A stretch of DNA of 64,000 nucleotides from Gemmatirosa kalamazoonensis (GTDB taxonomy: Bacteria > Gemmatimonadota > Gemmatimonadetes > Gemmatimonadales > Gemmatimonadaceae). The notes beneath the pieces are model-generated. The model saw nothing but the letters and a program-made list of their open reading frames with translations, was not told the DNA's origin and searched no databases. Location: contig NZ_CP007128.1 in the NCBI RefSeq assembly GCF_000522985.1, positions 1,100,220 to 1,164,219 of the forward strand. Direction: 5' to 3'. Positions 2,966-58,400 of this stretch are shown here, in pieces (the stretch's first letter is position 1; every line of letters starts with the position of its first letter). A program made the translations under genes and the position numbers.

Positions 2966-3352
2966 ATGTCCGATCTGGGCCTCCCGGCCGAGCTGCTCGA
3001 GCTGCTCTGCCGGCAGGTGGATCCCCTGGCCGAAGTCGAGGTGCTCCTTCTGCTGCATCGCACGCCGGAGCGTGCGTGGCGGGCGGAGGCGGCCGCGGCC
3101 GAGCTGCGCGTCGACGCGCGAACGACGGCGCGTCATCTTGCGGCGCTCGTGGCGGGGCGGCTGCTGCAGTCGGAGGACGACCCGCCGGCGTACCGCTACG
3201 CGCCGGCCTCGCCGTCGCTGCACGCGGCGGTGGAGCAGCTGCGCGTGCTGTACGACACGCGTCCCGTGTCGCTCGTGCGTCTGCTGTACGAGGGGCCGTC
3301 GCGGGCGGTTCGCTCGTTCGCCGACGCGTTCCGGATCCGGAGGGCGGAGTGA
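2966..3352 (+). CDS. Small winged-helix-like protein
   Basis: 128 residues. Residues about 18-75 have the pattern of a winged helix-turn-helix: a helix ending LLLLHRTPERAW, a recognition-type helix around AAELRVDARTTARHLAALVA, and a wing region ending YRYAPAS. The C-terminal helix (AVEQLRVLYDTRPVSLVRLL) could mediate dimerisation. It is followed 13 bases later by two small membrane protein genes, so the three probably form one unit in which this protein regulates or co-acts with the DUF5985 pair. The target is unknown. Confidence 0.75.
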   Translation: MSDLGLPAELLELLCRQVDPLAEVEVLLLLHRTPERAWRAEAAAAELRVDARTTARHLAALVAGRLLQSEDDPPAYRYAPASPSLHAAVEQLRVLYDTRPVSLVRLLYEGPSRAVRSFADAFRIRRAE

Positions 3353-3365
3353 GGTCCGAGCCGTG

Positions 3366-3623
3366 ATGGCCCTCGTCGTCTACCTGCTCTGCGCCCTCAC
3401 GAGCGCGGCGTGCGCGGTGCTCCTGTGGCGCGGCTACCGGCGGTCGCGGGCGCGGCTGCTGCTCTGGAGCTCGCTGTGCTTCTGGGGCTTCTGCCTGAAC
3501 AACGTGCTGCTCATCGTCGACGTGCGGACGCCGGACGTGGATCTCTCGCTCTGGCGCTCGGTGCCGGCGGCGGCCGGGCTGGCGCTGCTGCTCTACGGCC
3601 TGGTGTGGGACGCCGATGCCTGA
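3366..3623 (+). CDS. DUF5985 family membrane protein
   Basis: 85 residues with three predicted membrane helices (about 2-20, 28-47 and 62-80). The general pattern matches the small DUF5985 inner-membrane proteins: an Arg-rich loop GYRRSRARLLLWSS after helix 1, then FWGFCLNN in helix 2. The 3' end overlaps the next gene by eight bases, and the next product is a paralogue. The function of the family is unknown. Confidence 0.75.
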   Translation: MALVVYLLCALTSAACAVLLWRGYRRSRARLLLWSSLCFWGFCLNNVLLIVDVRTPDVDLSLWRSVPAAAGLALLLYGLVWDADA

Positions 3624-3883: not shown

Positions 3884-4246
3884 GCGGGATGATCCACTGC
3901 GGGACGATCCACTGCGGGACGACTGACGGCGGGACGACTGACGGCGGGACGCTAGACTGCGGGACGATCCACCGCGGGACGATCGACGGCGGGACGATCG
4001 ACCGCGGGTACCCCAGCGGCGCGTACCTAGTCCCTAGGGGGGCTCCCCCCCTTCGCCCAAGGTGCTAGGCGCCGGACGCGCCGCCGTACCATTCCGACGC
4101 CGACCCGATCCCTGAGAACGCGATGGGATCCCGCCGTCGATCGTCCCGCCGTCAGTCGTCCCGCCGTCGATCGTCCCGCCGTCGATCGTCCCGCCGTCAG
4201 TCGTCCCGCCGTCAGTCATCCCGCCGTCAGTCGTCCCGCCGTTTAG
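3884..4246. repeat. Composite dispersed repeat, copy 1
   Basis: Non-coding. A left array of 15-base units (GCGGGACGATCGACG and variants) runs 3884-4011. A palindromic core bounded by CGTACC at 4022-4027 and 4085-4090 follows, with G6-CT-C7 at 4037-4051. An array of the same units in inverted orientation runs 4127-4246. Because the unit is 15 bases, open frames with pentapeptide periodicity run through it, but they show no other sign of coding. It fills the gap between the DUF5985 cluster and the aminopeptidase gene. Confidence 0.85.
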
Positions 4247-9876: not shown

Positions 9877-11826
9877 ATGCGACCCAGAGAGCTCACCGCG
9901 CGCGGCCTGATACTCGGCGCGCTCATCACGACCGTCTTCACCGCGGCGAACGTGTACCTCGGCCTGAAGGTCGGGCTCACGTTCGCGTCGTCGATCCCGG
10001 CGGCGGTGATGTCGATGGCGATCCTGAGCGCCGTCAAGGACTCGTCGATCCTCGAGAACAACATCGTGCAGACCGTCGCCTCGGCGGCCGGCACGCTCTC
10101 GGCCATCATCTTCGTGCTGCCGGGGCTCGTGATCGTCGGCTGGTGGACGCAGTTCCCGTTCTGGCAGTCGTTCCTCATCTGCCTGAGCGGCGGCGTGCTC
10201 GGCGTGCTGTTCACGATCCCGCTGCGGCGGGCGCTCGTCACGACGTCGGACCTCCCGTATCCCGAGGGCGTCGCGGCGGCGGAGGTGCTGAAGGTCGGAT
10301 CCGGCACGCGCGGCGAGACGAAGGACGACACCGGCGAGGCACGCGAGGGACTGGTCGCCGTCATCCTCGGGTCCGTCGCGTCGTCGGGGCTCGCGGTGCT
10401 CACCGGCACGCGCGTGCTCGCGGGAGAGCTGAACGGCTTCTTCCGACTCGGCGCGACCGCATCGACGGGCTACAACATCGCGTGGTCGCTCGCGCTGCTC
10501 GGCGCGGGCCACCTCGTCGGGCTCTCGGTCGGCATGGCGATGCTCGTCGGGCAGATCATCTCGTGGGTGATCGCGGTGCCGGTGCTCACGTCGATGCACG
10601 CGCCCGAGGCCGGGCAGTCGCTCGCCGCGTACACGACGGCGATCTGGCGGACGCAGGTGCGGTTCATCGGCGCCGGCACCATCGCCGTCGCCGCGATCTA
10701 CACGCTCGGCCGCCTCGCGCGGCCCGTCGTCGGTGGGCTCGTGAGCACGCTGCGCGCGTCGCGCGCGACGGAGACCGGCGACGACAGCGACCGCGACCTC
10801 TCGCCGCCGTGGATCCTCGCGCTCACCGCGGGGTGTCTCGTGGTCGCCGCGTACCTCGCGTACACGTTCGTGCGCGCGACCGTGCTCGCGCCGAGCGCGG
10901 TACCGCTGACGCTCATCGCGGTGCCGTTCGTGCTCGTCGCCGGCTTCCTCATCGCCGGCGTGTGCGGCTACATGGCGGGGCTCATCGGCGCGTCGAACAG
11001 CCCGATCTCCGGCGTCGGCATCCTCTCGATCGTACTGTGCGCGTCGGTGCTCGTGCTCGCGGTCACGCCGACGGACACGACGCGGCTGCCGCTCGTCGCG
11101 TTCGCGCTGTTCGTGACGGCGATCGTGTTCGCGTGCGCGACGATCTCGAACGACAACCTGCAGGACCTGAAGACGGGGCAGCTCGTCGGCGCGTCGCCGA
11201 TGCGGCAGCAGATCGCGCTCATCGTCGGCGTCGCGGCCGGCGCGGCGGTGATCCCGTCGGTGCTCAACCTGCTCGCGAAGGCGTACGGCTTCGCCGGCGC
11301 GGCGAACGTCGGCGTCGTCGCGCCGAACCCGCTCCCGGCGCCGCAGGCGACGCTCATCTCCGCGCTCGCGCAGGGCGTCATCGGCGGGCACCTCGAGTGG
11401 ACGATGATCGGCATCGGCGCGCTCGTCGGCGTGGCGCTCATCGCGATCGACGCCGCGTTGGGGGCCGCCGGCAAGCTGCGCATCCCGCCGCTCGCCGTCG
11501 GCATCGGCATCTATCTCCCGATGTCGGCGACGTTCGCGGTCATCATCGGCGCCGTGCTCGCCCACTGGTACGACGGCCGCGTGCGCTCGGCGCCGAACCC
11601 GGAGCGCGCCGAGCGGTTAGGCACCCTCGTCGCGTCGGGGCTCATCGTCGGCGAGAGCCTGTGGGGCGTGATCAACGCGGGCCTCATCGTCGGCCTGTCG
11701 AAGGACGCGCCGATCGGGATCGTGCCCGAGGACTTCGCGCTGGCCCCGTGGCTCGGCGCGTTGGGCTTCGTGGGCGCGGTCGTGTGGCTGTACGGGTGGA
11801 TGCTCCGTCGCGCGCGCGCGGCCTGA
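9877..11826 (+). CDS. OPT family oligopeptide transporter
   Basis: 649 residues with about 15 membrane helices. The N-terminal signature (ALITTVFTAANVYLGLKVGL) and the long segments AAAEVLKVGSG, SISNDNLQDLKTGQLVGASP-like (at 11140-11200) and the closing GESLWGVINAGLI place it in the OPT superfamily, which imports oligopeptides or metal-chelate complexes with protons. It follows the DUF4395 gene by 41 bases and probably has its own translation start at ATG 9877. The substrate is not predictable from sequence alone. A TTA leucine codon within GTTAGGC occurs near the C-terminus. Confidence 0.94.
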   Translation: MRPRELTARGLILGALITTVFTAANVYLGLKVGLTFASSIPAAVMSMAILSAVKDSSILENNIVQTVASAAGTLSAIIFVLPGLVIVGWWTQFPFWQSFLICLSGGVLGVLFTIPLRRALVTTSDLPYPEGVAAAEVLKVGSGTRGETKDDTGEAREGLVAVILGSVASSGLAVLTGTRVLAGELNGFFRLGATASTGYNIAWSLALLGAGHLVGLSVGMAMLVGQIISWVIAVPVLTSMHAPEAGQSLAAYTTAIWRTQVRFIGAGTIAVAAIYTLGRLARPVVGGLVSTLRASRATETGDDSDRDLSPPWILALTAGCLVVAAYLAYTFVRATVLAPSAVPLTLIAVPFVLVAGFLIAGVCGYMAGLIGASNSPISGVGILSIVLCASVLVLAVTPTDTTRLPLVAFALFVTAIVFACATISNDNLQDLKTGQLVGASPMRQQIALIVGVAAGAAVIPSVLNLLAKAYGFAGAANVGVVAPNPLPAPQATLISALAQGVIGGHLEWTMIGIGALVGVALIAIDAALGAAGKLRIPPLAVGIGIYLPMSATFAVIIGAVLAHWYDGRVRSAPNPERAERLGTLVASGLIVGESLWGVINAGLIVGLSKDAPIGIVPEDFALAPWLGALGFVGAVVWLYGWMLRRARAA

Positions 11827-24314: not shown

Positions 24315-25082
24315 ATGGGTGTGACGTCGAAGGTCATCGTCATCACCGGCGCGAGCGGTGGCATCGGGGCGGCGGTCGCGCGGCGGTTGGGCGCGGACGG
24401 GCACCGGCTCGTGCTCGGCGCGCGTCGGGTGGCGGAGCTCGAACGCGTGGCGGCGGAGGCGCGCTCGCGCGGGGCGCCCGACGCGCGCGCCGTGGCGACC
24501 GATGTCACGCGCCGCGACGACGTCCTGCGGCTGCGCGACGCGGCGCTCGACGCGTTCGGCGGGTTCGACGTGTGGATCAACAACGCGGGGCGCGGCATCA
24601 CGCGTCTGGTGCTCGACCTCACCGACGCGGACGTCGACGACATGATCGCGGTGAACGTGAAGTCGGCGCTGTACGGCATGCAGGCCGCGGTGCCGCACTT
24701 CGTCGAGCGCGGCGCCGGTCATCTGATCAACGTGTCGTCCACGCTCGGCCGCGTGCCGATCTCGCCGTTCCGCTCCGCGTACAGCGCGGCGAAGGCGGCG
24801 CTCGCGTCGCTGACGACGAGCCTCCGCCTGGATCTCGCCGAGCGTCACCCCGGCGTCCACGTGTCGCTCGTGCTCCCCGGCGTGGTGACGACGGACTTCG
24901 CGCAGAACGTGCGCGGCACGCCGATCGCGCCGGTGACCGGCGGCGTGCGCGCGCAGACGGCGGAGGAGGTGGCGGAGGTGTTCGCGGATCTCGTCGCGCA
25001 CCCCGCGGCCGAGCGGTACACGAATCCGCGCTCGGTGGAGGCGGCGCGGGAGTATTACGCCCAGTTGTACGGCGGGGAGTGA
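24315..25082 (+). CDS. Short-chain dehydrogenase/reductase
   Basis: 255 residues. Cofactor motif TGASGGIG begins at residue 11; NNAG follows near 92, the catalytic Ser in NVSSTLGR near 141, and Y-x3-K (YSAAK) at 156-160. This is a complete classical SDR, NADP preference suggested by the Arg pair (ARRVAEL) after strand 2. The substrate is unknown. The gene ends at the edge of repeat copy 2. Confidence 0.95.
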   Translation: MGVTSKVIVITGASGGIGAAVARRLGADGHRLVLGARRVAELERVAAEARSRGAPDARAVATDVTRRDDVLRLRDAALDAFGGFDVWINNAGRGITRLVLDLTDADVDDMIAVNVKSALYGMQAAVPHFVERGAGHLINVSSTLGRVPISPFRSAYSAAKAALASLTTSLRLDLAERHPGVHVSLVLPGVVTTDFAQNVRGTPIAPVTGGVRAQTAEEVAEVFADLVAHPAAERYTNPRSVEAAREYYAQLYGGE

Positions 25083-25084
25083 AA

Positions 25085-25419
25085 CGGCGGGATGTCTGAG
25101 GGCGGGACGATCGACTGCGGGACGCCGTACTGCGGGACGCCGTACTGCGGGACGACATACCGCGGGATCGCTCGCGCGGGATCGTAGTTACCAGGGGGGC
25201 TCCCCCCCCTTCGCCCAAGGTTGCCAGGCGACGATCGAGTCGCGGTACCAATCCGACGCGCACCGGATCCGAGGAACGCGGCGCGATCCGCGAATCCGCT
25301 GATCCGCGACCCAGAACCCCCGGAGGGTGGCCCTCCGGAGAGAAATGCGCCCGCGCGCCGAACCTGCGTCTGTCGCGATCCCGCCGGTCGACGGTCCCCC
25401 GTCAGCCGTCCCGCCGTTT
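25085..25419. repeat. Composite dispersed repeat, copy 2
   Basis: 15-base units (GCGGGACG...) occupy 25085-25180. The palindromic core has a degenerate left end (near 25187) and an intact GGTACC at 25244-25249, with G6-CT-C8 starting at 25194. A conserved module of about 130 bases follows, containing GATCCGCGACCC and the stem CCGGAGGG-TGG-CCCTCCGG (near 25320), then inverted 15-base units near 25385-25419. It overlaps the last six codons of the MFS gene. Confidence 0.85.
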
Positions 25420-26595
25420 CGGTCCGGCCACGTACATGACTCCTGCCACCACCAGCGTCCCGAACCCCACGCCGCACACCCCTGCCCACCCCCACCCCGC
25501 CCACGCCACCGCGCCCGCCACCGAGCCGAGCGCCCCGCCCACGAAGTACGTCACCATGAACACCGTGTTCAGCCGCGAGTGCAGCGGCGCCGGCAGCGCG
25601 TAGATCCGCGACTGGTTCGACACCTGCGCCGCCTGCGTCCCCGCATCGAGCAGCACGACGCCGGCGGCGATCCCCCACAGCGTGTCGCCGGCGAGGAGGA
25701 ACAGCACCCACGCCACCGCGTTCACCGCGATCGCCGCCCCCACCGCGCGCCGTGGCGTGCCGCGGTCGGCGAAGCGCCCGGCGATCGGCGCCGCGAGCGC
25801 GCCGGTGATGCCTAACAGCCCGAACGCGCCCGCGACCGCCGATCCGTAGTGGAGCGGCGGCGTGTCGAGACGGAACGCGAGCGTCGTCCAGAACGCGCTG
25901 AACGCGGCGAAGAACAGCGCGCCGAGCGACGCCGCGTCGCGCAGCACCGGCTGCTCGCGCGCGAGCGTGACGAGCGAGCGGAGGAGCGCGCCGTACGACG
26001 TCGGCGCGTCGGCGTCGCGTGCCGCGGCCGGAGGCGTGCGCGGGAGCCAGCGCGCGAGGGCGAGCGCGAGCGCCAGCATCAGCGCCGCCGCGACGAGGAA
26101 CATCGCGCGCCAGCCGACGAGTCGCCCCACCGCGCCGGAGACGACGCGCGCCGCGAGGATGCCGACGAGGATCCCCGACACGACGCGTCCCACGACGCGG
26201 CCGCGCGCCGCCGGTGGCGCGAGTCCCGCCGCGAGCGGCACGAGGATCTGCGGCACCACCGTCGTCGCACCGATCAGCGCACCGCTCGCCGCGAGCAGCG
26301 GCAGCGTCGGCGCCGCGCTCGCCGCGACGAGTGCGACCGTGACGGCGGCGAGCAGCGCGAGCACGAGCCGCCGGCGCTCCACGAGGTCGCCGAGCGGCAC
26401 GAACAGCAGCAGCCCCACCGCGTAGCCGACCTGGGTCGACGTCGCCACCGCGCTCACGCGCGCGGCCGAAACGCCGAACGTGCGCGCGATGTCGGGCAGC
26501 AGCGGCTGGTTGTAGTACAGGTTCGCGACCGAGAGTCCCGCGGCGAGCGCGAGCAGCCATAGAAACGCGCCCGTGAGGCGCGGCGCGTTAGGCAT
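25402..26595 (-). CDS. MFS transporter
   Basis: 397 residues, 12 predicted membrane helices. The loop 2-3 motif (VPLGDLVERRRLVLALL) and the helix-5 region (GRVVGRVVSGILVGILAARV) are those of drug:proton antiporter-type MFS proteins similar to YnfM/arabinose efflux proteins. Start ATG CCT AAC contains a GCCTAAC word. The C-terminal residues (GPKRRDG) are encoded inside repeat copy 2, so the native C-terminus may have been changed by repeat insertion. Confidence 0.92.
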   Translation of the reverse strand: MPNAPRLTGAFLWLLALAAGLSVANLYYNQPLLPDIARTFGVSAARVSAVATSTQVGYAVGLLLFVPLGDLVERRRLVLALLAAVTVALVAASAAPTLPLLAASGALIGATTVVPQILVPLAAGLAPPAARGRVVGRVVSGILVGILAARVVSGAVGRLVGWRAMFLVAAALMLALALALARWLPRTPPAAARDADAPTSYGALLRSLVTLAREQPVLRDAASLGALFFAAFSAFWTTLAFRLDTPPLHYGSAVAGAFGLLGITGALAAPIAGRFADRGTPRRAVGAAIAVNAVAWVLFLLAGDTLWGIAAGVVLLDAGTQAAQVSNQSRIYALPAPLHSRLNTVFMVTYFVGGALGSVAGAVAWAGWGWAGVCGVGFGTLVVAGVMYVAGPKRRDG

Positions 26596-28566: not shown

Positions 28567-28908
28567 TAACGACGATCGACCGCGGGATCGCGCTGCGGCG
28601 AGCGGCGGCGCGGCGCGCGTTCGGCGCGCGGGCGCGTGGCTCCCCGAGGGGCCACCCTCCTGGAGGCTTGGATCGCGGATCAGCGGATGCGCGAATCCGC
28701 CGATCCGCTTACCAAACGCGAGGAGCCTTCCCTCGGGAGGCGTCGTGAGCCGGCGCCGCGATGCATCCAGTGGGATCCGGTCCGCGTCGGATCGGTACCG
28801 TGGCGTGCAGCGCGTGTAGCACCTTGGGCGAAGGGGGGGGAGCCCCCCTAGGACCTAGGGACCGCGCCCGACCTCGATCGTCCCGCCGTCAGGTGTCCCG
28901 CCGTCGCT
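28567..28908. repeat. Composite dispersed repeat, copy 3 (reverse orientation)
   Basis: The same elements as copies 2 and 5 but inverted. Unit-like sequence lies near 28570. The conserved module (28630-28745) includes GGATCAGCGGATGCGCGAAT and the stem around GGAGGGTGGCCCC on the other strand. GGTACC is at 28794-28799, the core palindrome at 28833-28848, a degenerate GGGACC at 28858-28863, and inverted 15-base units run to 28908. It separates the GATase gene from the AAA ATPase gene and carries no credible gene. Confidence 0.85.
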
Positions 28909-29813
28909 CACAAGTGTTTGAGGAACCGTTCCGGCGCCTCCAGAAACGCCCGCGTCAACGTCACGTGCGGCAGCTCGGCGTAGGGCACCTCGCGCACCGG
29001 CGGGTCGTCGAACGCGTAGATGCGCGCGCCGGGATAGGCGAGCAGGATCGGTGAGTGGGTGGCGATCACGCACTGCGCGCCGTGGCGCACCGCGCGGTCG
29101 ACGATGGCGAGGAGCGCGAGCTGGCGGCGCGGGGAGAGCGGCGCTTCCGGCTCGTCGAGCAGGTACAGGCCGTCGTGCATGCGCGTCGCGAAGAGGTCGA
29201 GGAAGCTCTCCCCGTGCGACCGCGCGTCGACGCGCGGGAGCAGACGCGCCGCGGCCTCGGCGTCGGCGTCCGGCTCGTCGGCGCTCCACGCGTCGCGATC
29301 GCCGGGCGCACGGGCGCGGCGCTCCCGCTCCTCGCGCGCCACGCGCGCCGTCGTCAGCGCCCGGCGCCGCAGGTGGCCGAAGAAGTCCTCGGCCCGGAGG
29401 AAGAAGCCGCGCCGCGTACGCACCGACCAGGCGAGGCGCAGCACGGCGGCGAGCGCGCGCGGGCCGGCGAGCGTCGCGTCGTCGACCGCGTCGGCGGCGC
29501 CCAACGTCGGCAGCTCCGCGGCGACCGCGATCGCCTCGAGCAGCGTCGACTTGCCCGACCCGTTCTCGCCGACGAAGCAGACGACCGGCGCGTCGAGGTC
29601 GAGCGCGTCGAGCGCGCGGACGGCGGGCACGTCGAACGGGTAGACGCCCGACGCGCGCGCGGCGTCCGCGGTCGGCTTCCACGAGAGGCGCAGGAGGTGG
29701 GGCGCGCGCGGCACGCCCGCAAGCTCGCGCCGCGCCGCGCGCCGCGGCAGCCCCCGCGGCACTCGGGCGCCGCCTAACGACCGCCCAACGGCTCCCCGTG
29801 CGGCGGCGTTCAT
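28908..29813 (-). CDS. AAA family ATPase (ABC-type/OLD-like single-domain)
   Basis: 301 residues from ATG 29813; the frame remains open further upstream but only through repeat DNA and the antisense of neighbours. Walker A is GENGSGKST near residue 84, Walker B LYLLDEPEAPLS near 221 and the switch His in CVIATHSPILL near 257. This is the compact AAA_21-like ATPase without a nuclease domain, common as a stand-alone protein. The stop is at the end of repeat copy 3. Its role is unknown; it could be a defence or repair component. Confidence 0.88.
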   Translation of the reverse strand: MNAAARGAVGRSLGGARVPRGLPRRAARRELAGVPRAPHLLRLSWKPTADAARASGVYPFDVPAVRALDALDLDAPVVCFVGENGSGKSTLLEAIAVAAELPTLGAADAVDDATLAGPRALAAVLRLAWSVRTRRGFFLRAEDFFGHLRRRALTTARVAREERERRARAPGDRDAWSADEPDADAEAAARLLPRVDARSHGESFLDLFATRMHDGLYLLDEPEAPLSPRRQLALLAIVDRAVRHGAQCVIATHSPILLAYPGARIYAFDDPPVREVPYAELPHVTLTRAFLEAPERFLKHL

Positions 29814-31868: not shown

Positions 31869-31895
31869 CCCGGTCTATTGTCGCCATTCGAGTTT

Positions 31896-31978
31896 TAACC
31901 GCGGAGGACGCAGAGTGCCGCAGAGGACTGCGCACACAAAGGCAGTGCTCTGCGCCCTCTGCGTCCTCCCGCGGTTCA
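31896..31978. repeat. Palindrome of the AACCGCGGAGGACGCAGAG type
   Basis: The left arm (31896-31925) and right arm (31950-31978) are near-complements with imperfect centre. It separates the convergent nuclease and PPK2 genes and can act as a bidirectional terminator. The same word family occurs at 45666-45744 and partly at 35672-35805. Confidence 0.8.
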
Positions 31979-31995
31979 ATGTCTCTGGTCGCGCG

Positions 31996-32820
31996 TCACG
32001 CCTCACCCGTGAGCGCCTGCCGCCATTTCGCGACGAGCTCCGGCCTGGCCACGGGCGGACGGTAGTCGAGCCGCTCGAGCGTGCGCACGAGGAGGTCCGC
32101 GATGAGCCAGTCCCGCGCGCGCTTGTCGTCCGCCGGCACGACGTACCACGGCGCCCACGTGGTGCTCGTCTGCGCGAGCGCGTCCCGGTACGCGGCGGTG
32201 TACTCGCTCCACAGCGCGCGGTCGTCGAGGTCGCCCTCGCGGAACTTCCAGTTCTTCGACGGGTCGTCCACGCGCTCGAGCAGTCGCTGCCGCTGTTCCT
32301 CGCGCGAGATGTGGAGGCACAGCTTCACCTGCACGACGCCCTCGTCGGCGAGCAGCTGCTCGAACGCGTTGATGTGGGCGTAGCGTCGTCGCCACGTCGA
32401 CTCGGGGACGAGCCCGCGCACGCGCGCGACGAGCACGTCCTCGTAGTGCGAGCGGTTGAAGATCCCGACGATGCCGTGCGGCGGCACCACCGCGTGCACG
32501 CGCCAGAGGAAATCGTGGCGCCGGTCGAGCGGCGTCGGCGCCTCGAAGCGCGCGACCTGCGACCCTTGCGGGTTGAGCGCGGAGAACACGCGCCGGATGA
32601 CGCCGTCCTTGCCGGACGCGTCGCGTCCCTGGAGCACGACCATGAGCGCGCGACGCCCGTCGGCGTAGAGCGATGCCTGCAGCTCGCCGAGCCGGTCGAG
32701 CAGCTCGTGCGTCGCGTCGCGCAGGTCGTCGCGGTCGGGCGCCCAACGCGGCGGCGCGGCGTCACGGTCGTCGAGGTCGGGACGCTCGCCGAGGGGAACG
32801 GGTGCGAGGTGCTTGGTCAT
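31996..32820 (-). CDS. Polyphosphate kinase 2 family protein
   Basis: 274 residues. Walker A GRDASGKDG is at residues 65-73, followed by RRVFSALNPQGSQVARFEAP and the lid-type region NRSHYEDVLVARV. The conserved KNWKFREGDLDDR near residue 192 and WYVVPADDKRARDWLIA complete the PPK2 pattern. These enzymes transfer phosphate between polyphosphate and nucleoside mono- or diphosphates, so the protein supports energy and nucleotide balance. Its subclass cannot be told from sequence alone. Confidence 0.93.
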   Translation of the reverse strand: MTKHLAPVPLGERPDLDDRDAAPPRWAPDRDDLRDATHELLDRLGELQASLYADGRRALMVVLQGRDASGKDGVIRRVFSALNPQGSQVARFEAPTPLDRRHDFLWRVHAVVPPHGIVGIFNRSHYEDVLVARVRGLVPESTWRRRYAHINAFEQLLADEGVVQVKLCLHISREEQRQRLLERVDDPSKNWKFREGDLDDRALWSEYTAAYRDALAQTSTTWAPWYVVPADDKRARDWLIADLLVRTLERLDYRPPVARPELVAKWRQALTGEA

Positions 32821-32858
32821 CGCGAAGGCCGTGACGGTGAGACGTGGCGCGTTCGAAT

Positions 32859-32928
32859 GGTACCGCGGCGCCGAGTGGACGGATCTATTATGGGCGTGGG
32901 GGGGGGAGCCCCCCGGGACCTAGGTACC
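32859..32928. repeat. GGTACC-bounded palindromic mini-element, solo copy 4 (reverse)
   Basis: Seventy bases between GGTACC at 32859-32864 and at 32923-32928, with G9-AG-C6 at its centre (32898-32914). The 15-base arrays and the long conserved module found beside other copies are absent here, which suggests that the roughly 70-bp core is the minimal unit. Confidence 0.85.
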
Positions 32929-38420: not shown

Positions 38421-39197
38421 ATGGCCAAGAAGCCGTCGCTCATCGGTCAGCTCACGCTCGGCATCGCCTCGGTCGCGGCGATCGTCGTCGCGGCGAGCCA
38501 GGTGAAGCCGGTGTTCGTCGCGCAGGCGCCGGTGGTCCAGCGCCTCGTGGCCGCGTCGTGGCGCGATTCGGCCGCGGCCCGCGCCCCGTGGGCGCTCGCC
38601 GACGGTGACTCGGCGGTGGCGACGGTGCAGTTCGAGCGCGACCGCAAGGCGTTCGCGAACGACCTCGTCGCCACGGGACGCATCGACAGCACGCGGGCGA
38701 ACGACATCGCGACGTACGCGGTTCGCGAGGCGTACAAGAAGCACCTGCCGCCGGCGCTCGTCTTCGGCGTGCTGCTCACCGAGAACTCGACGTTCAAGTC
38801 GAAGGCGAAGTCGAACGTCGGCGCGGTGGGGCTGATGCAGGTCTACCCGAAGGTGTGGGTGCCGACGCTCGGCAAGATCTTCGGCAAGAACCTGCGCGAC
38901 GACGAGACGAACCTGCGCTACGGCGTCCACATTCTCAGCCACTACGTGTACACGGCCGCGAAGAAGGCCGACGACGCGACGCAGAACCCGACCGACGTGG
39001 TGCGCACGGGGCTCCTGCGCTACAACGGCTGCGTGCACGGCACGAACACGCCGAACTGCAAGACGTACCCGGACAAGGTGCTGGCGGCGGTGGAGCAGTA
39101 CGCGGTGGCGCAGTGCGGCACGGACGTGAACGGCTGCATCGCGCAGCCGATGCGCCTGCGCCTCGACGAGACGCAGAAGGACCAGGCTGGACTCTGA
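38421..39197 (+). CDS. Lytic transglycosylase (SLT domain)
   Basis: 258 residues from ATG 38421. An uncleaved-looking membrane segment at residues 8-26 anchors it to the inner membrane. The catalytic Glu121 is in LLTENSTFKSKAKS, followed by GAVGLMQVYPKVW and RYNGCVHG near residue 215, the standard pattern for SLT transglycosylases that cleave peptidoglycan. Two Cys pairs near the C-terminus (GCVHGTNTPNC and CGTDVNGC) suggest periplasmic disulfides. Confidence 0.92.
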   Translation: MAKKPSLIGQLTLGIASVAAIVVAASQVKPVFVAQAPVVQRLVAASWRDSAAARAPWALADGDSAVATVQFERDRKAFANDLVATGRIDSTRANDIATYAVREAYKKHLPPALVFGVLLTENSTFKSKAKSNVGAVGLMQVYPKVWVPTLGKIFGKNLRDDETNLRYGVHILSHYVYTAAKKADDATQNPTDVVRTGLLRYNGCVHGTNTPNCKTYPDKVLAAVEQYAVAQCGTDVNGCIAQPMRLRLDETQKDQAGL

Positions 39198-39199
39198 CC

Positions 39200-39369
39200 G
39201 CGCTGATCACGACGCGGGCGATACGGCGCTGACGGTGAGGCGCGATGAGGCGCAAACGACGCTCACACCGCTCGACTGCGCAGCACGGCGCAGTGCCGCG
39301 GTCTGAGCGTCGTTTGCGCCTCATCGCGCCGTATCGACCGCGCAGTATCGCCCGCGTCGTGATCAGCGC
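39200..39369. repeat. 170-base palindrome after the transglycosylase gene
   Basis: Arms of about 70 bases: the left begins GCGCTGATCACGACGCGGGC three bases after the stop codon and the right is its complement ending at 39369, with an inner stem GAGGCGCAAACGACGCTCA. The central loop is about 35 bases. It separates the convergent transglycosylase and phosphoribosyltransferase-hydrolase genes and is the longest perfect-like hairpin in the window. Confidence 0.85.
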
Positions 39370-39384
39370 CGTTCAGCGGAGCGC

Positions 39385-45650: not shown

Positions 45651-45665
45651 GGGCGCTCATCTTTC

Positions 45666-45744
45666 TAACCGCAGAGGACGCAGAGGACGCAGAGGAGAAC
45701 CAATTCTTGTTGGTCTCCTCTGCGTCCTCTGCGTCCTCCGCGGT
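45666..45744. repeat. Palindrome of the AACCGCAGAGGACGCAGAG type
   Basis: Left arm 45666-45696 with repeated GCAGAGGAC units; right arm 45713-45744 is its complement. It separates the M13 gene from the arginase-like gene and ends three bases before one potential start of the latter, so the arginase-like gene probably starts later at 45765. Confidence 0.85.
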
Positions 45745-45764
45745 TCATGCTCTTCTCTTTCCCG

Positions 45765-50737: not shown

Positions 50738-53401
50738 ATGCCGGTGCGCGGTCGGCGGTTCCGTTTTCGCTTCCCGTGGCGCTCGCGCGGCGAGATCGCG
50801 CGCGACGTCGACGCGGAGCTCGCGTTCCATCTCGACATGCGGGCGCGCGACCTCGTCGCGGCCGGCCTCGCGCCCGACGAGGCGCGGCGCCAGGCCTGCG
50901 CGGAGTTCGGCGACCTCGCGTTCACACGCGACTACTGCCGCGATCTCGACGAGCGAGGCGAGCGCGTCGCCCGATGGACCGACCGCGTGGCGGAGTGGCG
51001 GCAGGACGCGCGCTACGCGTGGCGCGGCGTGCGCCGCAGTCCCGCGTTCGCCGCCGTGTCGCTCGTCACGCTGCTGCTCGCGCTCGGCGCGAACACGGCG
51101 ATCTTCGGCGTCACGCGCGCCGTGCTGCTCGCGCCGCTGCCGTACCGCGCGCCGGCGTCGCTCGTGGCGGTGTACGAGCGCGCGCCCGACGAGCCGGCGG
51201 GACGCATGCCGCTGTCGGTGCCGGATCTGCTCGACTACCGGGCCGCGCAGCGTACGCTCGCCGGCCTCGCCGCGTACACCGGCCGGACGGTGACGTGGCG
51301 TCCGCGGAGCGGCGATCCCGAGCTGTTCGATGCGCTCTCGGTGACGGCGAACACGTTCGCGATACTCGGCGCGCGGCCGCTGCTCGGTCGCGTGTTCGCG
51401 CCGGGCGACGACGCGGCGGGCGCGCCGCCGCGCGTCGTGCTGTCCTACGCGCTCTGGCGACGGGCGTTCGGCGCCGACGCCGCGGTCGTCGGCTCGACGA
51501 TCACGCTGAACGACCTGCCCTACACCATCGTCGGCGTGATGCCGCGCGGCTTCACGTTAGGCGGCTACGAGTCGGTGTGGACGCCGCTCGACCTCGCGCG
51601 CGACGCCGCGAACGCCGCGGTGACGCGCAAGCAGCACTATCTGCGCACGATCGCGCGGCTCGCGCCCGGGGTCACGCGCGCCGCCGCCGAGGCGGATCTG
51701 CGCGCCGAGTCGCGCCGCCTCGGCGCGCAGTACCCCGACGCGAACGGCGGCCGCCTCGCGCGGCTCGTACCGCTGCACGACGACCTTTCCGGCGACCTCC
51801 GCCCCGCGGTGCTGCTGCTCCAGGGCGCCGCGGCGCTGGTGCTGCTCATCGCCTGCGTGAACCTGGCGAACGTGACGCTGTCGCGCGCCGTCGCGCGGCG
51901 GCGGGAGCTGGCCCTGCGCGCCGCGTTAGGCGCGGGCCGAGGGCGCATCGTGCGACAGCTCCTCACGGAGAGCGTGCTGCTGGCGCTCGCGGGCGGCGCG
52001 TTGGGCAGCGGCACCGCGGTCGTCGCGACGCGCGCCCTGCTCGCGCTCAACCCCGACGCCCTTCCCGCGCTGTTCGACGTGCGCGTCGACGCGCGGGTGC
52101 TGCTGTTCGGCCTCGTGCTCTCCGCGCTCACCGGGATCCTGTTCGGCCTCCTCCCCGCGCTCGGCGCGGCGCGCGCCGGACCGCACGCGGCGCTGAAGGA
52201 CGGCGGCCGCGCCGGCGTCGGGCGCGGCGGCGAGCGGGCGCGCCGGGGGCTGGTCGTGGCGCAGGTGGCGCTCGCCGTCGTGCTGCTCGTCGGCGCCGGG
52301 CTGCTGCTCCGCAGCTTCGCCGAGCTGACGCGCGTGCGACTCGGGTTCGACCCGGCGCACGTGCTCACGGCGGAGGTACGCGTGAGCGGCGAGCGGTACG
52401 ACGATTCGTCGCGCGTGAACCGCTTCTACGACGCGGTGCTCGACGAGGTCCGGCGCGCGCCCGGCGTCGTCGCCGCGGGCGCGGCGAGCACGCTGCCGAC
52501 CGAGGGGAAGATCTTCAGCTCGCTCGTCGTCGAGGGCGCGCCGACGGAGCGCCCGGGAGACGTGGGCTTCACGCTCGTGCGCGGCGACTACTTCCGCGCG
52601 TTAGGCATCCCACTGCTCGCCGGCCGCGGCATCGACGCGCGCGACGGCGTGGGCGCGCCGGCCATCGTGGTCGTGAACGCGGCGGCCGCGCGCGCGTTCT
52701 TCCCCGGCGGCGACGCCGTCGGGCGGCACGTCCGGCTCGGCCCCGACCCGCACACGCCGTGGGCGACGGTGGTCGGCGTGGTCGGCGACGTGCGCGACCA
52801 GCGTGTCGACGTGCCGCCCGGGCCGGCGGTGTACATGAGCCACGCGCAGAACACGTGGATGCGATCGCTCGCGCTCACCGTGCGCACGGCCGGCGACCCG
52901 CGCGCGTCCGAGCGCCTCGTGCGCCGCGCGGTGCGCGACGCGGACCCGCAGCTCGCCGTGCGCGACGTGCGCCCGATGGAGGACGTGCTCGGCGCGAGCC
53001 TCGCCGCGCGGCGCCTCGCGCTCGGCCTCGTGGCATCGTTCGCAGCCGTCGCGCTGACGCTCGCGGCGGTGGGGATCTACGGCGTGCTCGCGTTCTCGGT
53101 CACGAGCCGCACGCGCGAGTTCGGCGTGCGGCTGACGCTCGGCGCGCGGCGGCGGAGCGTGATGCTGCTCGTCGTGCGGCAGGGGCTGGGGTGGTCGCTG
53201 CTCGGCCTCGCGCTCGGCGCGTTCGGCGCCGCGTTAGGCGGGCGGCTGCTCGACGGCGTATTGTACGGCGTGGGGCACGGGGATCTCGCGACGTTCGCGG
53301 CGGCGGGGGCGGGGCTGGTGGTCGTGGTGCTGGTGTCGTGCGCGGTGCCGGCGGTGCGGGCGATGCGGGTGGATCCGATCGAGAGCGTGCGGGCGGAGTG
53401 A
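50738..53401 (+). CDS. FtsX/MacB-like permease (ADOP family)
   Basis: 887 residues. The N-terminal cytoplasmic prefix (AELAFHLDMRARDLVAAGLA) is the permease-prefix domain. Then follow a membrane helix (AVSLVTLLLALGANTAIFGV), a MacB-type periplasmic domain, three further helices, a second periplasmic domain and three more, i.e. a duplicated FtsX arrangement. ADOP (orphan duplicated permeases) have no ABC ATPase in the operon, as here. It may transmit force or export a lipid or peptide. It ends at repeat copy 5. Confidence 0.93.
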   Translation: MPVRGRRFRFRFPWRSRGEIARDVDAELAFHLDMRARDLVAAGLAPDEARRQACAEFGDLAFTRDYCRDLDERGERVARWTDRVAEWRQDARYAWRGVRRSPAFAAVSLVTLLLALGANTAIFGVTRAVLLAPLPYRAPASLVAVYERAPDEPAGRMPLSVPDLLDYRAAQRTLAGLAAYTGRTVTWRPRSGDPELFDALSVTANTFAILGARPLLGRVFAPGDDAAGAPPRVVLSYALWRRAFGADAAVVGSTITLNDLPYTIVGVMPRGFTLGGYESVWTPLDLARDAANAAVTRKQHYLRTIARLAPGVTRAAAEADLRAESRRLGAQYPDANGGRLARLVPLHDDLSGDLRPAVLLLQGAAALVLLIACVNLANVTLSRAVARRRELALRAALGAGRGRIVRQLLTESVLLALAGGALGSGTAVVATRALLALNPDALPALFDVRVDARVLLFGLVLSALTGILFGLLPALGAARAGPHAALKDGGRAGVGRGGERARRGLVVAQVALAVVLLVGAGLLLRSFAELTRVRLGFDPAHVLTAEVRVSGERYDDSSRVNRFYDAVLDEVRRAPGVVAAGAASTLPTEGKIFSSLVVEGAPTERPGDVGFTLVRGDYFRALGIPLLAGRGIDARDGVGAPAIVVVNAAAARAFFPGGDAVGRHVRLGPDPHTPWATVVGVVGDVRDQRVDVPPGPAVYMSHAQNTWMRSLALTVRTAGDPRASERLVRRAVRDADPQLAVRDVRPMEDVLGASLAARRLALGLVASFAAVALTLAAVGIYGVLAFSVTSRTREFGVRLTLGARRRSVMLLVVRQGLGWSLLGLALGAFGAALGGRLLDGVLYGVGHGDLATFAAAGAGLVVVVLVSCAVPAVRAMRVDPIESVRAE

Positions 53402-53404
53402 GAG

Positions 53405-53830
53405 GCGGTTGCACGGCGGGACGATCGACGGCGGGACGCTGAACGGCGGGACGCTGAACAGCGGGACGCTGAACGGCGGGACGCTGAACGGCGGGACGCT
53501 GAACGGCGGGATGGATACGGCGGGACGATCGACCGCGGGACGGTCGACGGCGGGCGCGGTACCTAGGTCCCAGGGGGGCTCCCCCCCCTTCGCCCAAGGT
53601 GCTATGCGCGCAACGCGCGGCGGTACCAATCGAACGCGGACCGGATCCCACCATCGCAGCGCCGTCTCACGGCTCCGGCCCAGAGAAGCCCTTCGTGTTC
53701 GGTAACCGATCGACGGATTCGCGAATCGTTCGATCCGCGACCCAAACTCTGGGACGGTCGCCCCTCGAGGAGCCAGCCGCCCGCGCGCCGAAGACCCGCC
53801 CCGCCGTAGACGTCCCGCAGTACCTTCCGC
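53405..53830. repeat. Composite dispersed repeat, copy 5
   Basis: Nine or more 15-base units (GCGGGACGCTGAACG and variants) fill 53405-53550. The palindromic core lies between GGTACC at 53559-53564 and 53622-53627, with G6-CT-C8 at 53573-53588. The conserved module (53628-53810) includes ACCGGATCCC, GATCCGCGACCC and CCCGCGCGCCGAAGACC. Short inverted units (CGTCCCGCAG) lie at 53808-53820, just before the mutarotase start. Confidence 0.88.
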
Positions 53831-54661: not shown

Positions 54662-55426
54662 ATGCCATTCCGCCCCTACATCCTCGCCGAAGCGCCGTGG
54701 AAGTTCGTCTCCGGCGCCGCGTACGACGTCGCCGTGCTGCCGTGGGGCGCCACGGAGGCGCACAACTTCCACCTCCCGTACGGCACCGACGTCATCGAGT
54801 CCGATTACATCGCCGCCGAGTCGGCGCGCGTCGCGTGGGAGCGTGGCGCGAAGGTCGTCGTGCTCCCGACCGTGCCGTTCGGCGTCAACACGACGCAGCT
54901 CGACATCCCGTTCTGCATCAACATGAACCCGTCGACGCAGGCCGCGCTGCTGCGCGACGTCGTGTCGGCGCTCGAGGGACAGGGCGTGCGGCGGCTCGTG
55001 CTGCTGAACAGCCACGGGGGCAACGACTTCAAGCAGATCATCCGCGAGCTGCAGCCGACGACGCGCGTCATGCTCGTGCAGATCAACTGGTGGACGGTGC
55101 TCGACCAGAAGCAGTACTTCGAGGACCTCGGCGACCACGCGGGCGAGCTCGAGACGAGCGTCATGCAGCACCTCGTCCCGGACCTCGTGCTTCCGTTAGG
55201 CGACGCGGGATCGGGGCGCGAGCGCAAGCCGAAGATCGCCGGGCTGCGCGAGCGGTGGGCGTGGACGCCGCGTCGGTGGACGCAGGTGACCGCGGACACC
55301 GGCATCGGCGACCCGAAGGCGGCGACGCCGGAGAAGGGCGCGCGCTTCTTCCGCGACGTCACCGAGCGGATCGGCGGCTTCCTCGTCGACCTCGCAGCGG
55401 CGAACCCGGACGACCTCTACGAGTGA
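54662..55426 (+). CDS. Creatininase/FapB-like amidohydrolase
   Basis: 254 residues from ATG 54662. The family's metal-binding segments are GATEAHNFHLPYGTDVIESD, LNSHGGNDFKQI and DHAGELETS. Creatininase-family enzymes cleave cyclic or linear amides, including formamides in riboflavin and F420-type pathways; the substrate here is open. It converges with the SARP-TPR regulator gene with an overlap of about ten bases. Confidence 0.9.
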   Translation: MPFRPYILAEAPWKFVSGAAYDVAVLPWGATEAHNFHLPYGTDVIESDYIAAESARVAWERGAKVVVLPTVPFGVNTTQLDIPFCINMNPSTQAALLRDVVSALEGQGVRRLVLLNSHGGNDFKQIIRELQPTTRVMLVQINWWTVLDQKQYFEDLGDHAGELETSVMQHLVPDLVLPLGDAGSGRERKPKIAGLRERWAWTPRRWTQVTADTGIGDPKAATPEKGARFFRDVTERIGGFLVDLAAANPDDLYE

Positions 55427-58400
55427 CCGGGGCGGGCGCGGCCTAACGCCGCATCCACGCGCGCACGATACACGCGCGCCGAATCGGCCTCGCCCGCGGC
55501 GGCGTACGCGCGGGCGAGCGCGTCCTGCAGCTCGGTGCGCGTGACGTAGAGGTTGGAGCCCTCCATGCCGCCGCGCAGCGCGGCGCGGAGCACCGGCACG
55601 GCGTCGCGCGCGCGGTGCTCGGCCACCAGCACGCGCGCCAGCTCGAGGTTCACGCGCGTGAACCCGTTGTTCGGCGAGTGGATCGCGGCGCGCAGCGCTC
55701 CCTCGGCGGCGGTGTAGTCGTGCCGCGCCGCGTAGGACAGCCCGCGCACGTACGACGCGAGCCGGCGGTCGCGGCCGAACGCGCTCGCGCGGCCCGCGGC
55801 CGCCACGCGGTCGGCGAGGCCGCCGAACGGCGTGGTGTCGCCGGCCGCGGCGTACGCGGTCGCCGCGAGCGCGAGCCCCCACGCGCGGCGCCGCGCGATC
55901 ACGCCCGGGAGGGCGAGCGGCGGATCGGCCGGGAACCCGAGGGGCGCTGCGGCGACCGCCTCGAACGCCGACGCCGCGTCGCGCGCGCGTCCCAGCTGGA
56001 GCAGGATCGCCGCGCGCAGCAGGCGCGCCGGCGACGCGCCGTCGACCGCGTGACCGCCCGAGCGCCGCGCCGAGTCGTCGAGGGCGACGACGCGATCGGC
56101 GGCGCCTAACGCGGCCGCGGCGCGTCCCTGGTGCCGCAGGCTGATCGCGAGCCACCAGAGCGCCTCGACGCGCGCGGCGAGCTCGCCGTCCGCAGCGCGG
56201 TCGGTGAGCAGGCGATCGGCCGTCGCGAAGTCGCCGGTGCGGATGGCGAGCCGCGCGCGGTACGTCGCGTCGGCGAGGTCGCGCCCCGCACGACGCGACG
56301 CCTCGCGCCGCGCCGCGAGCGCGTCGGCGATCCGGTCCTCGAGCTCGTACACGTCCGACAGCGTGCGCCACGCCTCCGCGTTCGCCGGCTGGCGCCGCGT
56401 CCAGTCGCGCGCCTCGCGCTCGGCGAGGTCGAGCGAATCGCCCTCGACGTACGCGCCGACGAGCGTGCCGAGCGCGGCGCAGGCGCGGCACGGCAGCCGC
56501 TGCCGCGCGGTGTCGTTAGGCGCCGCGTCGAGCGTCGACGCGTCGCGGGCCATGACGTTGCGCAGGTGTGGGATGGCGCGCCCGCGATCCCCCGCCCACA
56601 CGAGCGCCTGCCCGAGCCACAGCTCGCCGTCGGGCTCGAGCGGGTAGCGCGTGGCGAGCGACTCGGCGGTCGCCACCGCGCGCGGGTCGTTCGTCGCGGC
56701 GGCCCACGTCGTCGCCGCGAACAGCCGCTCGCGCTCGGGACCGCGGCGCGACAGTCGGAGCGCCTGCGCCATGAGCGGCAGCGCCACCGCGTCGCCGACG
56801 AGCCCCTGCGCCGTCACGCCCGCGTAGTACGCCGCCATCGCGAACGTGGAGTCGTCGGCGAGCGCGGCGCGGAACAGCCGCAGCGCCGCCGGGGTGTCGC
56901 CCTGGTTCAGCGCGCGGAGCCCCTCGTCGTAGAAGCGCCGCGCGACGAGCGACGTACTCGTCACCTCGGCGAGCGGCCGCTGCGGCGCGGTCTGTCCGAC
57001 GAGCGCCGCCACCCATCCCGTCGTCGAGTCGGCGAGCGCGAAGACGTCCGCCGCCGCCAGCACCCGCGCGCCGCGGATGATGCCGCCCGCGGGGTCGACG
57101 AGCCGGACGTCGAGACGTAGAGGGTGGCCCGACCCGCCGGAGAGGATCCCCTCGACGACGTCGGTCGCGCCGGCGCGCCGCGCGACGTCGGAGACGCGCA
57201 CCGTGTCGCCGCGGGCGTCGCGCGCCGTCAGCTCGTCGACGCGCTCGGCGCTCACCACCCCGATCCCCTGCAGCCGCGCGAGATCGGTCGACAGCAGCTC
57301 GCGCACGAGGCGCGGCGACAGCGACGTGTCGCGCGCCTGGATGCGAAGGGTGCCGACCGCGAGCACCGCGGGCGTGCGGGCGTGCGCGCGCGTCACGAGC
57401 GCCGCGCCGGCCGCGACGAGGGCGCCGACGGCCACGAGCGCCGTCGCGGCGACGGCCGCGGCGCGCCGCGACCGGCTCCGGTACCTAGGTCCTGGGGGGG
57501 CTCCCCCCCCTTCGCCCAGGATCACGTCGCCGGACGTCACCGGCGGTACCGAGCCGACGCGCGCCGGCTCCTCCGAACGCACCGCGGTCGCGCCCCCGAC
57601 CGCGACCTCGCGTCGCACCCGGTCGGCCAGCGCCTGCGTCTCCGCCGATGGCTCCGCCTCCAGCTCCGCCGCCATCCGCGCCGCGAACGACTCGTACGCC
57701 CGGAGCGCGCCCGCGCGGTCGCCCGTCGCGTGGAGCAGCATCATGAGCCGACGGAACGCGCGCTCGTCGAGCGGCGCCAGTCGCACGGTGTCGCGCGCCG
57801 AGTGCAGCGCCAGCGGCAGGTTGCCGACGCGCTCCGCGTCGTCGGTGAGCGCGTGGGCGCAGCCGAGCGCCATGCCGTGCAGCCGCGCGCGCTCACCGTC
57901 CACCCACCGCTCGAGCTCCGGGGCGACGCCCGCGACGTGGAAGCCGTCGAGCAGCGCACCGCCGTAGAGGCCGAGCGCGTCCTCGTACCGCCGCTCGGAC
58001 ACCGCGCGCTCGAACTCCGCCGCGTCGCACCACACCTGCCCCGCGCCCACGCCGATCGCGTCGTTGCCGCGCCGCGCGATCACGTCGGACCCCAGCGCCT
58101 GCCGGATCCCGTGCACCGCCTGGCGCAGCGAGTGGCGCGCCGCGTCGTCCGCCGACTCCGGCCAGAACAGCGCGAGCAGCGAGTCGCGGCGCGTCAGCCG
58201 GTCGGGCCCCTTGAGGACGAGATACGCGAACAGGGCGAGCCGCTTCGGCTGCACGAGCAGCACGCGCGCCTCGTCGCCGGCGGCGTCGCGCACGTCGATG
58301 GCGCCCAACAGGCGGCAGCGGACGACGAACGACGGCGGGCTCGGGCCCCGCGACGGCGCGCTCGAGGTGTCAACTCGCAAATGACGGCGGCGTGTCGGGC

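Follow-up and report, generated by a model that had tools for sequence, protein, structure and literature searches.

Rickettsia palindromic elements (RPE) are repeats inserted in-frame into protein genes, and Neisseria Correia elements are small non-autonomous repeats that lie near genes, can bring promoters and have terminal inverted repeats (TIRs) and a TA duplication. BrickBuilt of Porphyromonas gingivalis is a MITE confined to one species and joined to a tandem minisatellite that varies in copy number; its 19 copies are always intergenic and have 23-nt repeats inside, TIRs of 12 bp and target duplications of 4 bp; promoter activity has been measured in segments of this element, which has no self-encoded transposase (PMC4596501). 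REP sequences are GTAG- or CGTC-tagged palindromes of 20-40 bp; most lie between genes, at the ends of convergent or same-direction genes, and some are inside genes, DNA-repair genes among them (Di Nocera et al., PMC3733652). Gemmatimonadota are not mentioned in the main text of PMC3733652.

The repeat family of Gemmatirosa kalamazoonensis described here is a variant of MITE/REP-like small repeats by virtue of its array-core-array composite. Like RPE it has in-frame copies in genes, but its sequence is unrelated, its core is mostly intergenic and arrays are attached to it. Like Correia elements it is a small non-autonomous repeat near genes and, unlike them, it has no TIR longer than 6 bp and no target duplication was seen. 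With BrickBuilt it shares a species-restricted, MITE-like core that is combined with a tandem minisatellite and lacks a self-encoded transposase, whereas its 15-bp arrays flank the core in inverted order, no TIR or target duplication was found, and six copies lie in genes. The core is, like REPs, short and palindromic, mostly intergenic, at gene ends and in some copies within genes, and one type of its left end reads GTAG directly ahead of the hairpin; it differs from them in being ~90 bp long instead of 20-40 bp, in reading mostly CTAG and not GTAG, and in the absence of RAYT/Y1 from the genome.

The core is a GC-rich hairpin repeat of ~90 bp, or up to ~110 bp counting a second CATTCCGACGC, in which the order is a GGTACCTAGGTACC-type dyad, a G6-CT-C8 dyad, TTCGCCCA-NNN-T, a spacer and GGTACCATTCCGACGC. 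It is thus larger than the ~70-bp element bounded by GGTACC that had been proposed at first, and ATTCCGACGC continues the conservation past the right GGTACC. The copies align as GGTACCTAGGTCCCA - GGGGGGCTCCCCCCCC - TTCGCCCA NNN T - spacer - GGTACCATTCCGACGC, with blocks far better conserved than the spacer, whose length is nearly fixed (21 or 22 nt from T to GGTACC in 77 of 82 copies). Both the A and the T of A-NNN-T are invariant in all 82 copies, in an alignment whose anchor accepted either A or G at its first position and left the T free, while the NNN is variable (AGG, TAG, GGA, TCA, TAA and others). The left end is mainly of two types, CTAG and GATCGTAG, which occur with different NNN; CTAG is present in most copies and GATCG(T/C/A)AG in 24 of the 82, so that by tags and length the core falls outside the 20-40 bp palindromes tagged GTAG or CGTC that define REPs. 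Of 39 copies that lack arrays or lie in genes, 14 have the second CATTCCGACGC, ~20 nt beyond the first, where shuffling predicts 4%.

The genome (four contigs, 7,479,215 bases; C2, 5,311,527; C3, 1,106,233; C4, 1,040,503) was searched with a sequence-only profile made from 30 copies. Results showed 82 strong places on C2, C3 and C4 and one marginal place (20 bits), with copies on the chromosome and on both megaplasmids. The exact 18-mer CCCCCCTTCGCCCAAGGT had 49 genome matches (27 and 22 on the two strands) and its reversed control pattern none, and therefore chance is excluded. Six of the strong places are the copies in the window, that is, the whole 64-kb stretch of DNA analysed, where the original prediction had located them correctly and in both orientations (Table 1). 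The prediction had put one copy within a gene; the copy at 57480 sits in a gene with a BTAD domain, covering about amino acids 234-271 in the linker just after that domain (100-227). The stretch TTCGCCCAAGGTGCTA, described as common to the six, is complete at 4022, 28794 and 53559, and the other three deviate from it (...AAGGTTGCC at 25187, TTCGCCCAGGATCACG at 57480 and CACGCCCATAATAGATCC at 32859). In copy 4 the last modelled base lies 21 nt ahead of the ATG of a PPK2 gene (31996-32820, minus strand); a PPK2 promoter conserved in relatives was considered and rejected, as nothing alike is present there.

Table 1. Coordinates of the core copies and attached arrays in the window, and of composites shared between loci of the genome (contig coordinates)
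Feature	Position	Strand	Remarks
Core copy 1	4022..4107	+	Profile match C2:1104246-1104326 plus left GTACC block
Copy 1 left array, 15-bp units of ACGGCGGGACGATCG type	3885..4011	+	
Copy 1 right inverted array	4129..4246	-	86% complementary to left array
Core copy 2	25179..25267	+	Between convergent genes 24315-25082(+) and 25402-26595(-)
Copy 2 left 15-bp array	25084..25166	+	
Copy 2 long right arm, shortened form	25268..25379	+	Common to seven other copies
Core copy 3	28776..28863	-	Genome profile match
Copy 3 left 15-bp units, about two	28879..28910	-	Directly after stop of gene 28908-29762(-)
Copy 3 long right arm, with strong hairpin	28580..28775	-	
Core copy 4, divergent subfamily CACGCCCATAAT	32842..32928	-	Genome profile match
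Core copy 5, best-scoring copy	53558..53645	+	Genome profile match
Copy 5 left 15-bp array	53413..53555	+	Begins 11 nt past stop codon of gene 50738-53401(+)
Copy 5 long right arm	53646..53800	+	
Core copy 6	57480..57568	+	Antisense, in-frame within BTAD-domain gene 55417-58293(-)
Shared composite	C2:920578/C2:1586580		353 bp, 93%
Shared composite	C2:1375993/C3:430865		426 bp, 89%
Shared composite	C2:222949/C4:697716		273 bp, 90%

Profile searches found no core match in 58 relatives or in 394 other genomes of the phylum, under stricter filters by which some weak matches were lost. Two core patterns had no match in 84,980 species, one had none in viral contigs, and the best-scoring copy had none in plasmid or phage collections, records of the G. 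kalamazoonensis genome itself being left out of these scans. Diverged copies in relatives were likewise rejected: lenient scoring of 20 relatives gave only 12-17-bit chance-level matches, with seven of the eight inspected inside genes, and one intergenic match (L254) was vaguely alike (GGGCGCGTACGCCCCCACGCCCAAGGT...GTACCGAC) at an E-value of 0.023 over the 20 genomes, which is chance level. The core family is new to the searches made here, and its kind, MITE/REP-like small repeats, is known.

Two features that the original prediction had missed are inverted 15-bp arrays and a strong bias of placement relative to genes. Tandem units of 15 bp adjoin four of the six window copies (4022, 25187, 28794 and 53559), in inverted orientation on the two sides wherever both sides exist, and the window has no other arrays of this unit. 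Genome-wide, 43 copies have 15-bp arrays (unit ACGGCGGGACG + 4) on at least one side, those on the right being inverted. Their gene settings are convergent in 16 cases, same-direction tandem in 16, opposite tandem in 7 and divergent in 4, against 2, 13, 4 and 14, respectively, for the 33 copies without such arrays. The split was automatic, with genes from our own gene caller and approximate starts; two of the 33 (window 28794 and C4:519814) carry the long right arm and belong with the array group, which leaves the picture unchanged. Array copies thus lie mostly 3′ of genes and array-less ones mostly 5′ (Fisher p=1.3e-4 for the convergent/divergent contrast), and the orientation bias in tandem pairs is modest (29:11 overall, p=0.006). 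Eight copies have in common a right arm that is ~190 bp long and contains a GCGGATTCGCGAATCCGC-type hairpin (L035, L036, L061, window 28580-28775 and 53646-53800 among them), the stem of which is extended in one copy (C2:5230909).

Array-less copies often occupy the entire gap between two genes, and in six of them the upstream reading frame terminates at a TAG within the element. Genes downstream of these copies encode PPK2, DksA-like, TerC, SDR, MaoC, BlaI-like, PAS/GAF, DUF1206 and other products; a shared regulon was rejected, their functions being unrelated, and no transposase appeared among the adjoining genes that were scanned with Pfam. Six further copies are located in-frame within genes, three in sense and three in antisense orientation. 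The one in hisIE gives an interdomain linker of 30 amino acids, compared with 12 in the 83%-identical protein of the sister genus (genome G015), and the one in a Cho/UvrC-like gene lies within a linker of variable length. Each in-gene copy could also be a replaced linker instead of a clean insertion. The Cho-like case resembles the REPs in DNA-repair genes (PMC3733652), but it is a single case.

Among 59 genomes of the family, 15-bp arrays of the core-associated unit were found only in G. kalamazoonensis. The first 100 places listed include 20 array loci, 19 of them with the core; in the exception (C2:875575-875915, L105) a 15-bp array is joined directly to its own inverted array of 14-bp units. 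Arrays can occur without the core and the core without arrays. One core lies between inverted 8-bp GTGGCTGC arrays (C2:627061), and a pure inverted GTGGCTGC array is present between convergent genes at L083:189-295. The longest array observed, of ~28 units of ACGGCGGGACGCCTG, lies left of a core copy at C2:1375551-1375974 and far exceeds the others. In addition to the 15-mer, the unit families of this genome include GAGGGCAG, GCAGAGGAC and GTGGCTGC; intergenic inverted arrays at window 45651-45746 and 31869-31995 and at L004:2455-2553 consist of CGCAGAGGA-type units (CCGCAGAGGACGCAGAGG ... CCTCTGCGTCCTCTGCGG), a family distinct from the 15-mer.

Long inverted repeats are present in 23 of 34 convergent gaps of G. 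kalamazoonensis (three samples) and in 72 of 84 of G015, compared with 7 of 59 and 16 of 137 divergent gaps, respectively, and in no convergent gap after shuffling. With a lower threshold, the more distant G021 shows shorter hairpins at 14 of 21 convergent gaps. The array-hairpin-array layout recurs in at least 15 intergenic regions of G015 with another unit, GCGGAGGACGGAACG, and most of these regions have a common hairpin core of different sequence. By their position, gene-end inverted arrays look like 3′-end or terminator structures. The window has an inverted repeat of this sort without core between convergent genes at 39197-39372 (85-bp arms, 87% complementary, 6-nt loop), one of many gene-end hairpins in the genome. 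On contig C1 of G015 (L194-L248; e.g. 3348-3441, 10282-10379 and 21860) there are further intergenic hairpin families, GGATGCGGATGCTCCGGAT... and GCAAGGATGAAGATC...GTTCGGGTCCGGCGC, unrelated to the core. Locus-specific matching of left and right arrays was looked for and rejected, since none was found. Insertion into hairpin tips as a general rule for array-less copies was also rejected: their flanks are not mutually inverted beyond chance, with C2:627061 as the sole exception.

Dispersal of the core was examined in the one element-bearing strain and in over 1.1 Mb of G015, the closest relative examined, which was searched with flanking proteins. At C2:936458 and C2:1773044 both flanking genes lie 25 and 28 nt apart in G015, free of the element, against ~150 and ~130 nt in G. 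kalamazoonensis; these are candidates for the empty sites that a mobile element predicts, with exact junctions that are unreadable because the sister genus has diverged (~50-85% protein identity). At C2:1463286 the orthologous gap of G015 is occupied by a separate inverted array, with different units and a different core. Within the genome, composites are shared by loci on different replicons or by loci separated by 666 kb, with 88.7-92.9% identity over 273-426 bp that stops inside or near the arrays. The composites at C2:1153777 and C2:1586580 are 98% identical in the left half and 77% in the right, and pairs that match on the left and differ on the right indicate that copies also exchange sequence by recombination or gene conversion. 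Some of the spread may have come about through recombination between repeats.

Classical marks of transposition were looked for without success. When 39 copies that are array-less or lie in genes were scanned over offsets and lengths, target duplications showed no clear excess (longest direct repeat 4.87, 4.96 expected), and GGTACC (6 bp) is the sole inverted match between the core ends. As in MITEs, the core is short, non-coding and dispersed in many copies (82, on three replicons); the TIRs of MITEs are missing from it, and the inverted 15-bp arrays that could serve instead in composites are absent from many copies. Genome-wide, the enzyme search covered Y1/RAYT and reverse transcriptase: the genome had no Y1/RAYT match (PF01797; controls positive in 5 of 14 genomes), and SINE-like spread by reverse transcriptase was rejected with no RVT_1 in the genome and positive controls. 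The original reading as a small non-autonomous mobile element is therefore largely right as regards dispersal, and non-autonomous fits because the core has no coding capacity and no self-encoded enzyme was seen; TIRs longer than 6 bp, target duplications, Y1/RAYT and reverse transcriptase do not accompany it. Taken together, the core is probably a species-specific, lineage-restricted, non-autonomous MITE/REP-like repeat, possibly carrying a promoter. This mobile-element reading is the best of those considered, even with the classical signatures missing.

How the core moves, and any function that it has, we can only infer. An enzyme acting in trans may move it, or it may spread by recombination, with its DNA dyads as the putative recognised feature. 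We read the invariant A and T around NNN as A-11 and T-7 of a putative -10 element. If CANNNT works as a -10 element, copies just 5′ of a gene and in the same orientation could therefore serve as its promoter or leader; this promoter step is weak, because no TTGACA-like -35 is recognisable and a scan found no sigma-70 hexamers at copy 4. Array-bearing copies occupy the loop of long gene-end hairpins resembling bidirectional terminators.

The strong G/C hairpin and the position ahead of start codons would also suit a structured RNA, either a riboswitch-like leader or a small RNA, yet this is very improbable: the window had no Rfam match at gathering scores, pairing counts among copies gave no covariation above shuffles, the folding z-scores of whole arms were just -1.9 and -0.1, and the downstream genes are unrelated. 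Rfam matches by E-value were to eukaryotic RNA families, mostly microRNAs, far below the gathering score, and were taken as chance. Since no compensatory pairing was seen, the dyads would be recognised as DNA and not as RNA structure, and from the aligned copies the constraint on the core looks like one on DNA sequence over RNA structure. The core might also be a fixed operator or promoter for a lineage-specific regulator, having arisen at many genes without transposition. Conserved blocks at near-constant spacing around a drifting spacer, the invariant A-NNN-T, and array-less copies mostly close upstream of a same-strand gene, with the start codon 26-47 nt past the core in 15 of 27, are what such a site would show. 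We consider it unlikely nonetheless, given in-frame copies inside genes, several of them antisense, downstream genes without a common function, entire composites duplicated between replicons, and many copies between convergent genes, where a promoter would have no gene to act on.

Alternatively, the core may be part of a termination hairpin, as a loop module of long 3′-end inverted arrays, copied along by recombination or gene conversion, with isolated copies as remnants. The 43 cores with inverted 15-bp arrays and the one between inverted 8-bp arrays, the long inverted repeats of convergent gaps in both genera and their absence from shuffled gaps, the same layout around a different core in G015, and composites whose halves are of different origin all speak for it; but arrays are missing from more than 30 copies, most of which lie 5′ of or inside genes, and these array-less copies include the most divergent variants, unlike remnants at 3′ ends, so we hold this explanation to be rather doubtful. 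A bolder version of the mobile-element reading would make the core a promoter-bearing element that targets DNA structure and enters the tips of long gene-end hairpins of inverted minisatellite arrays (15-bp, one 8-bp), moved by neither RAYT nor reverse transcriptase, the arrays being a lineage-wide terminator system whose units turn over in concert between genera. In its entirety this is improbable.

The repeat described here gives the phylum, which is rarely studied, a small-repeat family with many members. Unusually, this family combines copies in-frame within genes, copies at gene starts and copies at the centre of inverted 15-bp arrays at gene ends. In two genera, long inverted repeats lie between most of the convergent gene pairs sampled, often as arrays with genus-specific units, and these convergent-gap repeats offer a concrete route to how high-GC bacteria end transcription and how repeats stay alike within a genome.
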